From Lepisosteus oculatus (taxonomy: Eukaryota > Chordata > Actinopteri > Semionotiformes > Lepisosteidae), in contig NW_027168257.1 in assembly GCF_040954835.1 (NCBI RefSeq), forward strand, positions 212,501 through 276,500: 64,000 nucleotides of DNA, read 5' to 3'. Below, piece by piece: positions 3,291-33,866 of this stretch. The first letter of the stretch is position 1; each line of letters begins with the position of its first letter. Under the pieces are notes generated by a model, which worked only from the letters and a program-made list of their open reading frames with translations, did no database searches and was not told the origin of the DNA. A program made the position numbers and the translations under genes.

Positions 3291-3736
3291 GGCAGACAAA
3301 TGGAGACTAACAGGTGATGTCCTAGGACATGACTACATTGTGACACTCGGTGGGGATGGTGACCATTGCTTGGAAAAGAGTGCGAGGCCCCTTTAGAAAA
3401 ACATTTTGTTAACAGGCATTCTGCCTTAGTCCAAACACCTATAGCTCGCAAAGCGCATGCTATTAGACAGGCACCTCTGCAAGACCTTAAGAGTCTCTTA
3501 AACTAGTGATAGTAAGGTGTTCCCAATGGGCGATGTTTGGCTTTCAAATCATCTCTCTGTGGAAGCGCCGAGATGCAGCTGTTTAAGGCTTAGAAGCAGC
3601 TGACTGTTTCACTACCTAGCGGATTACTGTCAGTCAGGGAGCTCAGAGGTGAAAAGCCTGTCTGAGAGACAATTCGCCGTCGATCAGTTCAATATGTTCC
3701 GTACCAGCTCGGCGCACCTGAGATCATCTTGGTAGC

Positions 3737-15757: not shown

Positions 15758-15877
15758 GCACTCTGGTTTCTCTTCATCTCGTACAAATCTTTCGCCTTTT
15801 ACTAAAGATTTCCGTGGAGAGGAGCATGAATGAGTTCCATGCAATTTTTGTGCTTCCCTGCCTTCGGGTGGGGCGCA
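15758..15877 (+). ncRNA. RNU5: U5 snRNA, copy 11
   Basis: Majority sequence. The preceding unit is 507 bp because one C is missing in the CCGGCCG segment. Type-A spacer. Confidence 0.92.
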
Positions 15878-16265
15878 GCCTGGCTGGTCAAAGAGAGAAA
15901 ACAAAAACGCTCGCAATCGGTCTTGTTATGGCGATTGTGGCAGTCTGCTCCGCGAGTCCTCGGTCTCCGGCCGTCTGATTGGCGCTCTTTTTTTTGGGGG
16001 TTGGGAAGTGTCCGGCTGCAGGGGATCTTGGGACCTCGCTTTGCATAGCGGCTTCCCAGAGTGCGTCGTTTCCGGCACAGTGTGGCCGGGTGTTTTCCGA
16101 GTTATCGCACGGATTGGTCACGCTCGCAAGCCGTGAGCCGCAGGCGATGAGCCCGGAGCTGAACGGGCCCCACTGGCTCGTTTGTAAGGCCAGGTGCATT
16201 GCCAACCACGACCGGCAGCGCAGAGGCTTTGAAGGCGGCCTGGGCTCCTGCAGCTGTGCAGCCAC

Positions 16266-16385
16266 GCACTCTGGTTTCTCTTCATCTCGTACAAATCTTT
16301 CGCCTTTTACTAAAGATTTCCGTGGAGAGGAGCATGAATGCGTTCCATGCAATTTTTGTGCTTCCCTGCCTTTGGGTGGGGCGCA
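16266..16385 (+). ncRNA. RNU5: U5 snRNA, copy 12 (tetraloop variant)
   Basis: The 3' hairpin loop is TTTG instead of the stable TTCG. The region before the Sm site is AATGCG. Spacer is type B but with CTCGTTTG, suggesting exchange between spacer types. Confidence 0.9.
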
Positions 16386-16773
16386 GCCTGGCTGGTCAAA
16401 GAGAGAAAACAAAAACGCTCGCAATCGGTCTTGTTATGGCGATTGTGGCAGTCTGCTCCGCGAGTCCTCGGTCTCCGGCCGTCTGATTGGCGCTCTTTTC
16501 TTTGGAGGGCGGGAAGTGTCCGGCCGCAGGGGATCTTGGGACCTCGCTTTGCATAGCGGCTTCCCAGAGTGCGTCGTTTCCGGCACAGTGTGACCGGGTG
16601 TTTTCCGAGTTATCGCACGGATTCGGCACGCTCGCAAGCCGTGAGCCGCAGGCGATGAGCCCGGAGCTGAACGGGCCCCACTGGCTCGTTTGTAAGGCCA
16701 GGTGTATTGCCAACCACGACCGGCAGGGCAGAGGCTTTGAAGGTGGCCTGGGCTCCTGCAGCTGTGCAGCCAC

Positions 16774-16893
16774 GCACTCTGGTTTCTCTTCATCTCGTAC
16801 AAATCTTTCGCCTTTTACTAAAGATTTCCGTGGAGAGAAGCATGAACGAGTTCCATGCAATTTTTGTGCTTCCCTGCCTTCGGGTGGGGCGCA
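16774..16893 (+). ncRNA. RNU5: U5 snRNA, copy 13
   Basis: GAGAAGCATGAACGAG variant before the Sm site. Type-A spacer. This is the last gene with an undisturbed promoter; the next unit is broken by the U1-ORF1 insert. Confidence 0.92.
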
Positions 16894-17268
16894 GCCTGGC
16901 TGGTCAAAGAGAGAAAACAAAAACGCTCGCAATCGGTCTTGTTATGGCGATTGTGGCAGTCTGCTCCGCGAGTCCTCGGTCTCCGGCCGTCTGATTGGCG
17001 CTCTTTTCTTTGGGGGGCGGGAAGTGTCCGGCCGCAGGGGATCTTGGGACCTCGCTTTGCATAGCGGCTTCCCAGAGTGCGTCGTTTCCGGCACAGTGTG
17101 GCCGGGTGTTTTCCGAGTTATCGCACGGATTGGGCACGCTCGCAAGCCGTGAGCCGCAGGCGATGAGCCCGGAGCTGAACGGGCCCCACTGGCTCGTTTG
17201 TAAGGCCAGGTGTATTGCCAACCACGACCGGCAGGGCAGAGGCCTTGAAGGCGGCCTGGGCTCCTGCA

Positions 17269-17928
17269 CAGCACCCACCCACTGTGTCCCACAGCACCAC
17301 AGCGCCGACACACCTTTGGTTGTCCCACATAAAAAACATAGCCATTGCAGGCGCCCAGCTGGATTGTAGAGGGCAGGTGCCTTAAGCCTCCATTTACATT
17401 GTCCGGTAGCAAGCGAACCTCGAATTTCCTTGCTCCTGTTTTTATACCGTCAACATCTCTAACCTCAGTTCCATGGTGGACGGTGCAGTACTGCTTAAGC
17501 CAGGTGTGAATGTCCTCCGTCTTTGCCATTTCCGAGAACATAACAACATGCACCGTTTTCCTCTCTCTCTGTGTCAGAGGCTGCAAGTTGATCTTCTCAA
17601 GGGCAGGAACTTTCCCTCTTTTTGCCTCAAACACATCCACACATTGTTCAAACAGAGAATAGGTAGCAAAAACAACCTCAAATTCTTTCTGACCTGGGAG
17701 AGCGAAGATGAAATCCAAGTGCCGAGGTTCAAAGCCAAGTTCCTTCTGTAACACTTTTCTGCTGAACTGCATACGATCCATGAAGAGGTCATCCAAAAGC
17801 TCAAAACGTACAGCATTCTTGCGGGATCCAAAGGTTGCCATCTCAAACTGCAAAACAAACACTGCTTCCACAAAACAAGAAAACAATCCAACTACAGGCT
17901 GATCAAGGTATCTCCCCTGCCAGGTAAG
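17269..17928 (-). mobile_element. Chimeric insert: U1 snRNA 5' end + LINE ORF1 fragment
   Basis: Read on the minus strand, the insert begins with U1 nucleotides 4-32 (17928 down to 17900, identical to the U1 gene at 33703). A leader of about 58 bp follows, then an ATG at 17841 opening a frame of about 190 residues: MATFGSRKNAVRFELLDDLF at the start and CRRCGAVGHSG at the end. The protein resembles ZCCHC3-like ORF1 proteins, which in fish are mostly first ORFs of Tx1/L1-type non-LTR elements, with a CCHC knuckle cut off at the junction. No poly(A), 3' UTR or ORF2 is present. About 90 bp of U5 spacer (17173-17268) is repeated on the far side (about 17927-18020), like a long target duplication, but with ~5% divergence. 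It is a fragment and encodes no complete protein. Confidence 0.7.
17900..17928 (-). pseudogene. U1 snRNA 5'-end fragment (nt 4-32)
   Basis: Twenty-nine bases match U1 exactly, including the 5' splice-site-pairing CTTACCTG and the lineage-specific T in ACCTTGATCA that the local U1 gene also carries. It stops within stem-loop I and goes straight into the ORF1 leader. Confidence 0.88.
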
Positions 17929-18031
17929 CTGAGAGCCACTGGCTCGTTTGTAAGGCCAGGTGCATTGACAACCACGACTGGCAGGGCAGAGGACTTGAAG
18001 GCGGCCTGGGCTCCTGCAGCTGTCCAGCCAC

Positions 18032-18151
18032 GCACTCTGGTTTCTCTTCATCTCGTACAAATCTTTTGCCTTTTACTAAAGATTTCCATGGAGAGGAGCA
18101 TGAATGAGTTCCATACAATTTTTGTGCTTCCCTGCCTTCGGGTGGGGCGCA
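18032..18151 (+). ncRNA. RNU5: U5 snRNA, copy 14 (diverged, DSE displaced)
   Basis: Last copy of the array and the most diverged: TTTTGCC before loop I, TTTCCATGG in stem I, CCATACAATTTTT at the Sm site, and GTCCAGCC just upstream. Loop I is intact. Only ~105 bp of array sequence precede it, so the PSE is present but the nearest DSE (17056) lies about 975 bp upstream beyond the insert. Probably weak or silent. Confidence 0.8.
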
Positions 18152-18222
18152 GCTGGGCTGGTCAAAGAGAGAAAACAAAACCGCTCACAATCGCTCTTAC
18201 AATGCAGTAAGTAGCACAGGCT

Positions 18223-18238
18223 ACTTAGGGAGTAGGCT
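18223..18238. repeat. LINE target-site duplication, left
   Basis: ACTTAGGGAGTAGGCT is repeated exactly at 21357-21372, on either side of the RTE LINE. The empty site is seen near 62540. Confidence 0.85.
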
Positions 18239-21200
18239 CTTCTTCTTCTTCTTCTTCTTTTTCACAGCCTTAGTCCCAGACTGTCCTGGGGTCAGCTGCT
18301 TTGGTTGCTCTTCTCCATTTGTCTCTGTCGAGCACATCTTCCTCACTCACTTCACATACCTCCATATCTTTTCTCACACAATCTATCCATCTCTTTCTAG
18401 GCCTGCCTCTTCCATTGTTACCTTCCACCTCAAATTCCATTACCCTCTTTGTTACTTCCTCAAAGTCCCTCCTCATGATATGTCCATACCACCGTAACCT
18501 CGCCTCTCGCATCTTCTCAACCACATCCACCACCCTACATTGTCTACGGATTTCTTCATTTCTGATCTTATCCTTCATTGAAATCTGCAGAATCCATCTC
18601 AACATCCTCATTTCAGTTCTTCTCATCAAGTTCTCTTCCCTCTTTCCAACTGCCAAGCATTCAGCTCCATATAGTAGTACAGGTCTAATCACAGTCTTGT
18701 ACATTTTGCACTTTAACTTTCTGGGAATTTTCCTGTCACAGATTATTCCAGTTATCTCTCTCCACTTGTTCCATCCAGCTTTCACTCTTTGTTTTACTGC
18801 CTCCAGTGTTTCTCCTCCCTTTACCAGTTTTGATCCAAGGTATTTAAAGTCATCAACTTGTTTCAGTTTTCCTCCATTTGTCTCCTCAACATTGGTCATA
18901 GTATCTCCTCTTCTCTCCATTACCATTATTTCAGATTTTTGTGCATTCATTTTCAGTCCACCCTTTTCCAGACTCCTCTGCCATTTGAACACTTTCTCCC
19001 GTAGTTCTACTTCTGAGTCTGCCATCAGTGCCACATCATCAGCAAAGATGAGTTCCCAAGGCACTTCTGTTCTTACCTCCTCTGTCAGTGTGTCAATAAT
19101 GTTTATGAAAAGGAAAGAACTTAGTGCTGATCCTTGGTGTACTCCAACTGTGATTTCAAACTCTTTTGTCTCTCCCTGTTGTGTTATCATCTTCGTAGTT
19201 GCATCTCTATAGGTTGCTTGAACTAACTTCACCATGCTTTCTGGTACTCCTTTCTTCCTCAAGCACCAATACACCACCTCTCTGGGCACACGGTCATATG
19301 CCTTCTCCAAGTCCAGAAAGGCCACATACAGCTTTTTCCCTTTCTCTAGTGTCTTCTCCTGTAACTGTCTCATCACAAAAATGGCATCTGTTGTGCTTTT
19401 CCCCACTGAGAATCCAAATTGTGAGTTGTGGATCCTGATTATCTTCCTGAGTCTCTTGTCCAGAATTTTTTCCAGGATTTTCAATCCATGTTCCAGAAGT
19501 TTTATTCCTCTATAGTTTTAACACTCCATTGGGTCTCCTTTCTCCTTGTAGATGGTAACCATACTGCTTTTTGTCCATTCTTCTGGAATTCTCTCTTCCT
19601 TTGCAATATTGTTTAGCAATCTCGTCAGCCACTGAATCCCCTCTTCATCGAGGTTCTTAAAGTGTTCTGCTGCTATTCCTGATGGTCCAGTTGCTTTGCC
19701 CACTTTCATCTCTTTGATAGCTTCTGTCACTTCCTTTACTGAAATTTCTTGGATTGGTCCACACACTACGTCTGCCTCCACTAGGTTCTCCCTCTCATTT
19801 TCTACATTTAACAGATTTTTGAAGTACTCCAGCCATCTTTGCTTGATCTGTTCTTCTTTAATCAAGACTCTGCCTTCTCCATCCTTGAGTCCCGCCACCC
19901 GGATAATATCTTTTTTCTGTCTCGCTCTATGTTTAGCAATCTTGTAGATTTGGTCCTCTCCTTCCTTTGTTTCAAGTTTCTCATTCCATTCTTTCCAGGC
20001 TCTTTCCTTTGCTCTTGCTACACTTCTTTTTGCTACCTTCTTTAGTCTCTTATATTCTTGTAATTCTCCAGTGCCATCTTTCAGTGCCTTGTATGCTTTT
20101 TTCTTTTCCTTCAGTGTTTCCTGAACTTCCATATCCCACCACCACTCTTCATTTTCCCTCGGTCTGCCTCCTCTTGTCTTTCCACAAACCCTGGTAGCAG
20201 CCTCTTCTAGGATGTGGCTCATCTCAGTCCACTCTTCTTCAACTGAAGGCTCCTCTGTTTCCTCTGTGTTGTTTTTCATTTCTTTCACCAGCCTGTTGAA
20301 ATCTACTTTGTTTTCTCTCAGTTTCCACACTTTTGTTCGTGCTGGGTGTTTCCTCTGCCTTATTCTTCGCTCCTTCAATATTGTGATGTCCATCACCAGT
20401 AGCCTGTGTTGTCTGGTAACAGCCTCATAGGGCAGGACTTTAGCATCTTGGACTTTCGCTCTATCAATTCTTCTCACTAATATGTAATCTATTTGGGTAT
20501 CATGGCCTCCACTCCTGTATGTCACCTTTTGCTCATAATTCTTCGTGAACCCTGTGTTCACTGCAAACAATTCAAGAGCTTGGAGTGTCTCTAGTAGCCT
20601 TCCTCCTTCTTCATTTCTCTCTCCTAGCCCTCTCTGACCATGTTCATCTGGATAATCTGGGCATTTCTCTCCTAAATGTGCATTGAAGTCTCCTCCAATT
20701 ACCACCATTTCATTTCCTGGGATTCTGCTAATCACTTCTTCGAGATCTTCCAAAAAGCTCTCCTTTTCCTCCTGTGGTCTTCCTACCTGTGGTGCATATA
20801 CAGAGATGATATTCCATAACCCACTCTCAAAAGCCACCTGTACATTGATAATCCTGTCTGAGTGTCTAACCACCCTCACTATCTTGTCTGCTAGGTCTTT
20901 GCACACTATCACACCCACTCCATTCATTTTGGTACTCTTTCCAGCATATAGAATCATGTATCCCTCTCCTAGGTGTCTTGAGCTGTTTCCTTTCCACTTG
21001 GTTACTTGCACACACAAGATCTCCACTTTTCTCCTTGCCATAGTTTCAACCAATTCTCTCCCTCTCCCTGTCATGGTGCCAACATTCCAACTCCCCACTC
21101 TCATTGACTTAACATTCCTTCCAGGCCCCTTCACCTTGTTTCTTTTCTGTAGCCCCCACTCTACAGTTTTCCCCACAGTAGCATAATTTCCATTAGTACC

Positions 21201-21356
21201 CTGTTGGGACACAGCACTAATGGCGGACGTTGTTAACCCGGGCCCCGGCCGATCCGGTATGTGGTTTGTGTTCTTTGCAACCATGGTTTTGGCAAGATGG
21301 TTTTACGTCAGATGCCCTTCCTGACACAACCCTTTTAGTCGCCTCTTACGACAGGC
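18239..21356 (-). mobile_element. RTE-clade LINE, nearly complete
   Basis: A 3.1-kb non-LTR element on the minus strand. It has a (GAA)n 3' tail (CTT repeats at 18239-18260), a single endonuclease-RT ORF, a short 5' UTR, and a 16-bp target duplication at each end. The continuous structure, the exact duplication and the single stop suggest a fairly recent insertion. It landed 20 bp from the tRNA-Arg pseudogene. Confidence 0.85.
18270..21284 (-). pseudogene. RTE LINE endonuclease/reverse transcriptase ORF
   Basis: Two open stretches in the same frame (588 and about 415 codons) are separated only by a TAA at 19518-19520, giving about 1,004 codons in all. Order of domains: APE endonuclease from about residue 60 (GSWNVGTMTG), GGDFNAHLG near 195, HDTQIDYILVRR near 260; RT from about 500 (GKATGPSGIAAEHFKN, FLDLEKAYDRVP, HQGSALSSF, catalytic FADD); and a C-terminal RLRWYGHIMRR...GRPRKRW tail typical of RTE/CFDP2-like proteins. 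The endonuclease motif normally QETKWKG reads QVTKWKG (codon 21003-21005), so a metal-binding Glu is lost. With that and the stop, this copy cannot mobilise itself. Confidence 0.85.
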
Positions 21357-33702: not shown

Positions 33703-33866
33703 ATACTTACCTGGCAGGGGAGATACCTTGATCAAGAAGGAGGTTCACCCAGGGCGAGGCTTGGCCATTGCACTCCGGCTGTGCTGACCCCTGCGAATTC
33801 CCCAAATGTGGGAATCTCGACTGCATAATTTCTGGTAGTGGGGGACTGCGTTCGCGCTCTCCCCTG
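33703..33866 (+). ncRNA. RNU1: U1 snRNA
   Basis: 164 nt, the usual U1 length. The 5' end ATACTTACCTG pairs with 5' splice sites; stem-loop I keeps the U1-70K-binding GATCA loop region; stem-loop II has TTGCACTCCGG; the Sm site is AATTTCTGG; stem-loop IV ends CTCCCCTG. Compared with human U1, stem I has ACCT/AGGT for ACCA/TGGT and stem III has ATTCCC/GGGAAT for TTTCCC/GGGAAA. Both are compensated pairs, which argues for a selected, working RNA. A 3' box (GGTCCAAAATCAGA) lies at 33875-33888. It acts in the spliceosome at 5' splice-site recognition. Confidence 0.95.

Follow-up and report, generated by a model that had tools for sequence, protein, structure and literature searches.

A probable U1 snRNA gene-specific LINE family in Lepisosteus oculatus and its fragment in a U5 gene array

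A U5 snRNA gene array of Lepisosteus oculatus contains the fragment of a retrotransposon that was active recently and has one fixed site in U1 snRNA genes. Its source is best explained as an autonomous LINE family (AP-endonuclease type, L1/Tx1 superfamily) targeting U1 snRNA genes, a reading to which we assign a probability of about 0.88; the main idea of a preliminary description of this DNA, a U1-targeting element, is thus supported. At the U1 genes a recurrent 3' junction (nt 40/41) is combined with a seamless 5' junction after nt 32, and the U1 promoter and nt 1-32 are kept upstream of the element. With U1, a new host gene would be added to those of target-specific LINEs.

The fragment in the U5 array and a complete relative

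The window, i.e. the whole analysed stretch of 64,000 nucleotides, contains one U1 gene, one U4 gene, 23 tRNA matches and 14 U5 genes, among which the fragment is found in antisense position as initially described (Table 1). The preliminary description had moreover seen the 5' end of U1 fused to a LINE ORF1. This junction is real, with 29 of 29 identical U1 bases followed by leader and ATG, but it starts at U1 nt 4 and not at nt 1. The U1 head (17928-17900) was found by longest common substring and obtained a BLAST E-value of 3e-9; the chance expectation of a 29-mer match to the U1 gene in the window is approximately 6e-11. The ATG of ORF1 (17841-17839, minus strand) directly follows the leader, from which 9 nt (GTGGAGTAG) of the complete copy's leader are missing. 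A domain search of the open reading frame returned PF23057 (1.4e-18) and PF23058 (5.7e-25), both ZCCHC3 RNA-binding domains, and its closest named protein stems from the gar Atractosteus spatula (P0003, 92% identity over 48% of the query). The family match is lost at 17284 within the first CCHC knuckle, in line with the described end of the fragment in a zinc knuckle. From the piece originally delimited as 17269..17928, the part 17284-17928 could be confirmed in the main, while 17269-17283 do not belong to the element and the adjoining 17929-17935 are mostly U5 spacer; 98% copies of the window segment align from query base 16 on only.

The left and right flanks of the fragment are the same 83 bp with 4 differences. 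This repeat was rejected as a TSD and is read as two overlapping U5 units. The U5-array stretch at about 15769-19428 of the window has nearly identical counterparts at other places of the genome (L001, L002 and L004, with 3654-3656 of 3660 bases in agreement), and this recurrence looks like part of a very large repeated unit. Furthermore, a different LINE-like element is situated by the U5 array (18270-21302, minus strand), with endonuclease and RT frames in adjacent open stretches.

Table 1. Features of the LINE fragment, its surroundings and the U1 gene in the window
Feature	Position	Strand	Remark
U5-array spacer, left flank	17186..17268	plus	
15 nt at the 3' break, unlike the element or other U5 spacer units shown	17269..17283	minus	
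LINE ORF1, codons 1-186, two ZCCHC3 RNA-binding domains	17284..17841	minus	
LINE 5' leader, 58 nt, starts GCCTGTAG	17842..17899	minus	
U1 snRNA nt 4-32	17900..17928	minus	exact, 29/29
CTCTCAG, remnant of the U5-spacer::U1 junction	17929..17935	minus	mostly U5 spacer
U5-array spacer, right flank, ahead of the last U5 gene	17936..18018	plus	
Last U5 gene of the array, after the right flank	18032-18148		
Intact U1 snRNA gene, unoccupied target	33703..33866	plus	Rfam, 168 bits

The window fragment shares 95.9% identity with a complete LINE of approximately 5.14 kb (5141-5142 bp) that resides within a U1 gene at locus L039. The order in this unit is U1 promoter, U1 nt 1-32, LINE and U1 nt 40/41-164, which is the arrangement expected for a full-length element inserted at about U1 nt 32 and here attached to a full ORF1 and ORF2, both as proposed before. 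Approximately 500 bp upstream together with U1 nt 1-32 share 95% identity with the U1 locus of the window. ORF1 of the complete copy is intact, its product of 475 aa containing two RBDs and zinc knuckles, and the likewise intact ORF2 encodes 1152 aa with matches to RVT_1 (1e-34), Exo_endo_phos (4e-15) and zf-RVT. In addition, ORF2 matched a chain named LINE-1 ORF2 protein, presumably the human one, at 2.7e-90. The 3' UTR carries an AATAAA that begins 24 nt before the element end. Reverse transcriptase and endonuclease in ORF2 together with a nucleic-acid-binding ORF1 identify the element as a LINE, and an AP-type endonuclease and a CCHC ORF1 are present as in the Tx1 clade. The same unit of the U1 array on C1 also contains, in opposite orientation, a gene for 5S rRNA (L039 2024-2142), i.e. 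a 5S-U1 linkage.

Junctions with U1 genes across the genome

A search for further junctions of U1 nt 32 with the same leader had been set beforehand as the test of the idea. The genome (1.2 Gb, 813 contigs) was searched with a probe consisting of U1 nt 11-32 and the first 8 nt of the leader, which gave 533 exact matches in the whole genome and 0 for the reversed sequence used as control. These cannot be counted as 533 insertions, because 246 of them have one common junction, at which U5 spacer replaces U1 nt 1-3. The complete U1 nt 1-32 with the preceding C was found at 178 junctions, at least one of which (L010) is rearranged upstream; U1 genes split at nt 32, the second prediction, do exist. 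About 109 of the 533 fall outside both pattern classes, and those that were read include window-type copies, insertions at other places, and U1 or U5 copies that differ by point changes. Since the probe needs the nt-32 junction, this count does not extend to LINE copies that lack U1 or have a different junction. With this probe demanding the nt-32 junction, the outcome that was to speak against the idea, i.e. other copies of this ORF1 lacking U1 or each joining it at a different base, did not occur.

The 5' flanks were read at 63 places, a non-random sample of 30 first-listed and 33 chosen ones, the later of which largely avoided known U5-class places. Among them, 40 are seamless in U1 genes with the U1 promoter, 11 belong to the U5-spacer class and 12 are of other types, the classes being assigned by eye (L010 as other, L036 as seamless). 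One point change within U1 nt 1-10 was present in 6 of the 40 seamless flanks. When the upstream flanks of 30 loci were grouped at 97.5% over 1000 bp, 18 classes resulted, 12 of which represent U1 loci. An ORF1 of 475 aa was found in 17 of the 30 loci; several copies carry deletions, internally or at the 3' side, or lack a 3' end where one would be expected.

The downstream side is equally recurrent. The LINE tail followed by U1 (GGTTCACCCAGG) was found at 315 places with the 3' end abutting U1 nt 40/41, compared with 0 in the control. This number was obtained with a gapped-tail probe; an exact-tail probe gave just 15 matches because the tail varies. Among the places listed, 17 tail forms, as counted by eye, occur at the U1 nt 41 junction, most of them variants of (GAAATC)n. 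The 315 are ends joined to U1 and do not give the fraction of all LINE 3' ends that lie in U1. Leaving the share of all copies aside, the element recurs at one site of a multicopy gene with both junctions, as is typical of site-specific elements.

Empty and filled sites can be compared directly in one array, in which empty units of 3336 bp with intact U1 occur together with filled units of 8470 bp. The difference of 5134 bp corresponds to the length of the element minus the eight bases (nt 33-40) that are lost. Next to the empty units lie copies whose ORFs are open and whose sequences are almost identical. A probe of U1 nt 25-48 found 503 matches in the genome, including some insertions further downstream and U1 pseudogenes. 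It was rejected as a count of empty genes, because truncated U1 copies and an insertion after nt 53 are matched as well. Set against these 503 matches, the 178 nt-32 splits with an exact U1 head make the load on U1 genes look heavy, and questions of gene dosage and array maintenance become testable.

Copies without a seamless 5' joint and a model of integration

Signatures of TPRT, i.e. 5' truncation, TSD and short 3' repeats, were found, and the cuts can be read from copies that lack the seamless joint. A 5'-truncated copy (C1:5588690) has U1 up to nt 53 on its left, and at the distance to be expected a LINE 3' end (L082) abuts U1 nt 41, which gives a 13-bp TSD of nt 41-53 if the two ends are paired, as was done, by distance. 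In L021/L041, U1 up to nt 51 is followed by filler, U1 nt 3-32, the LINE and U1 from nt 41, with an 11-bp TSD. Outside U1, L022/L044 has a U1 nt 3-32 head and an 11-12-bp TSD, GGGAGGCTGAG(A), in a gene that we take to be 7SL-like. The duplication comprises just 3 bp in L011, and L078 has no clear one. A bottom-strand cut at nt 40/41 and a top-strand cut about 11-13 nt downstream would fit the clearer cases, and rejoining via the U1 1-32 head would fit the seamless class in which nt 33-40 are lost.

The copy at L022 and L044 (G000:C4, near 7173050-7180100) is young, has a full-length ORF1 and represents the off-target choice of another small-RNA gene. On G000:C14, L032/L049 and L038/L050 have different 5' ends and lie at the same base of a repeated sequence, between GAC and GGTTTTCTGAAG, as if this were a second target site. 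The same contig holds head-to-tail LINE tandems (L112, L114), with the 3' end of one on leader base 8 of the next; its distance from U1 nt 32 is the same as that of the U1 site.

Over 1.48 kb, the non-seamless copies L019, L021, L022, L032 and L038 share 99.8-100% identity with array copies, and therefore movement has been recent. Two older non-U1 copies share 88% (L018) and 82% (L023) identity with L013; off-target insertion is therefore not a recent phenomenon only.

Gene conversion or array amplification could account for part of the identical junctions seen at different U1 loci. In its extreme form, this would mean that one or a few ancient U1 insertions were spread by array amplification, segmental duplication and gene conversion with no continuing site-specific transposition. 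Eight array copies on C1 with 99.9-100% identical upstream flanks agree with such a history, as do the one U5-spacer junction that accounts for 246 of 533 and the window-type loci read, 8 of 8 of which (one being the window itself) lie within U5 arrays. It is nevertheless unlikely in view of the 12 flank classes at U1 loci, the 17 tail forms that the listed places show at one junction with U1 nt 41, and the occurrence of several 5' structures with one and the same 3' site, among them the copy with the 13-bp TSD and L021 with its 11-bp TSD. Nearly identical copies in 7SL-like DNA, with 11-12-bp TSD, and in the repeat also speak against it.

The heads of the non-seamless copies bear on transcription. 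In 11 of 12 such copies U1 begins within nt 1-10 and never upstream, namely at nt 1 (L023, L078), nt 2 (L083), nt 3 (L019, L021, L022), nt 4 (L038), nt 5 (L011, L091), nt 9 (L032) or nt 10 (L018), and the promoter is next to the head in 0 of these 11. The exception is L010, in which ACTC of the U1 promoter stands ahead of nt 1 in a rearranged flank. Late U1 starts can be mimicked by point mutations. Heads that start at nt 1-10 and none upstream suggest an RNA started by the U1 promoter, and judged from these 5' ends the LINE is probably transcribed from it. A G precedes nt 1 in both nt 1 copies lying in non-U1 DNA (L023, L078), as a copied cap would leave; the two cases are only suggestive. 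If confirmed, a long translated mRNA from an snRNA-type Pol II promoter would be unusual.

The same heads, extending from nt 1, 2, 3, 4, 5, 9 or 10 to nt 32 in copies outside U1, could be taken to mean that U1 is nothing but a captured 5' head, acquired by template switch or as a fixed U1-derived end comparable to SINEU or U6-L1, of an element inserting without U1 specificity. The nt-32 probe would miss other heads, and 3' ends were counted at U1 only, both of which leave room for this view. It is very improbable, however, as the U1 promoter lies upstream in 40 of the 63 flanks read and a 5' head alone cannot explain 315 LINE 3' ends at U1 nt 41. The copies with a U1 head outside U1 genes rather indicate that U1 is both the target and the captured 5' end.

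The window fragment itself is connected with the U5-spacer class, in which 246 members share the junction CTCTCGG-CTTACC, with the U1 head meeting antisense U5 spacer at a shared CTT; these junctions look like the outcome of array amplification or gene conversion. From the seven class members first fetched, four (L067, L069, L075, L077) continue as far as the LINE 3' end and U1 nt 41, which lie at the distance to be expected, whereas an element could not be found there in the remaining three. The window copy keeps the U5-spacer::U1 junction, approximately 32 bp of spacer and 9 leader nt are gone, and ORF1 is cut against another U5 unit; among 40 scored hits of the window segment, 17 match it in full length. 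It reads as a rearranged deletion derivative of the U5-spacer class, multiplied together with the U5 array. An alternative already raised in the preliminary description, a one-off chimera formed by L1-mediated template switching and inserted in the U5 spacer, could explain a 3'-truncated, tail-less copy flanked by the 83-bp U5 spacer repeat, and is given practically no weight as it is contradicted by the 533 junctions and the 315 U1 3' junctions, by the 246-fold joining of U1(4-32)::LINE to U5 spacer and by the four class members that reach U1 nt 41.

For the U1-targeting LINE the following course of integration can be proposed. RNA polymerase II would start at U1 nt 1 and produce a LINE RNA headed by U1 nt 1-32. 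The endonuclease would nick the bottom strand at nt 40/41, reverse transcription would be primed at this nick on the (GAAATC)n tail, and the top strand would be cut about 11-13 nt downstream. The cDNA end with the complement of U1 nt 1-32 would usually rejoin the upstream U1 by homology, giving the seamless junction with loss of nt 33-40 and reloading the element behind the U1 promoter. Where the homology is unused, the insertion would keep either a TSD together with a U1 head that is redundant, or a truncated 5' end. In the ancestor of the window copy, the U1 head would have joined U5 spacer at the CTT microhomology, the product then being spread with the U5 array and later cut down. From the U1-headed off-target copies, the second half of LINE integration could then be read in the genome sequence. 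A rather doubtful extension is that a U1(1-32)-LINE-U1(41-164) RNA transcribed to the U1 3' box keeps the Sm site and 3' stem-loop and could thus exploit the assembly of snRNPs and their re-import into the nucleus to reach U1 loci again, while second-strand joining would be guided by the U1 head.

Relation to known elements

The element is probably a U1-specific, Tx1-clade LINE. In an RT tree of 48 rows, which contained no reference Tx1L, Keno or L1, the gar ORF2 groups with 16 proteins lacking useful names (100/100; 50-58% identity over the region), and a Danio protein named TX1 (P0036) is found in the neighbouring group. The 16 companions include P0022, listed as RT-domain protein of an Aeromonas MAG, and P0021, listed as exonuclease III. 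ORF1 had no match in bacterial and archaeal contigs or in the PDB, and the ORF2 profile found one 30% relative on a MAG contig, which has no bearing on the target question; searches of viral contigs and plasmids gave no match.

R2, a LINE of 28S rDNA, is co-transcribed with its host RNA gene and uses 5' target sequence to rejoin upstream DNA. It has a Pol I promoter and a 28S target, whereas the gar LINE would combine a Pol II snRNA promoter with a U1 target. SINEU and U6-L1 chimeras share snRNA-derived 5' heads with the gar LINE; they are non-autonomous or one-off, and we know of no insertion of theirs at U1 nt 41. Keno has two ORFs and is placed in Tx1. According to the accessible part of PMC4640811, Keno is a LINE with an AP-like endonuclease that occurs in fish, frogs, lancelet and hydra and whose 3' boundary in U2 is precise and lies near nt 40. 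The gar LINE resembles it in the type of endonuclease and in a 3' boundary that is precisely placed close to nt 40 within a spliceosomal snRNA gene, and differs in the site (U1 nt 40/41 instead of U2 nt 38/39) and in the U1 head of its off-target copies. Utopia, described there as a restriction-like-endonuclease LINE in U2 with varied 5' boundaries and a precise 3' boundary (PMC4640811), is alike in having an snRNA target and differs in endonuclease class and in the snRNA. Dada-U1 shares a fixed site within U1 genes, in zebrafish, but is a DNA transposon (PMC3706591, in the accessible part); it is not a retrotransposon, and neither its DDE transposase nor its short TSD at GCGAAT, further downstream in U1, was found in the gar element.

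As far as the text available to us goes, a 2015 list of snRNA-gene transposons names only Keno and Utopia (U2), Dada-U1 and Dada-U6 (PMC4640811), and the transposons named for U1 in the accessible parts of PMC3706591 and PMC8869645 are DNA transposons. Titles and abstract openings revealed no U1-targeting LINE, with Repbase and most subscription journals outside this scope. Insertion in U2 genes, the hallmark of Keno, was not seen as the habit of the gar element, for which U1 is the main site found, besides one U2-joined nested copy (L091). At this place (L091, L104, L106; G000:C16:20333900-20339800), promoter and nt 1 to about 24 of an snRNA that we take to be U2 are joined to the LINE leader, and a second, U1-headed LINE is nested in the leader of the U2-joined one; it is possible that the outer element is a U2-headed version of the U1-targeting LINE.
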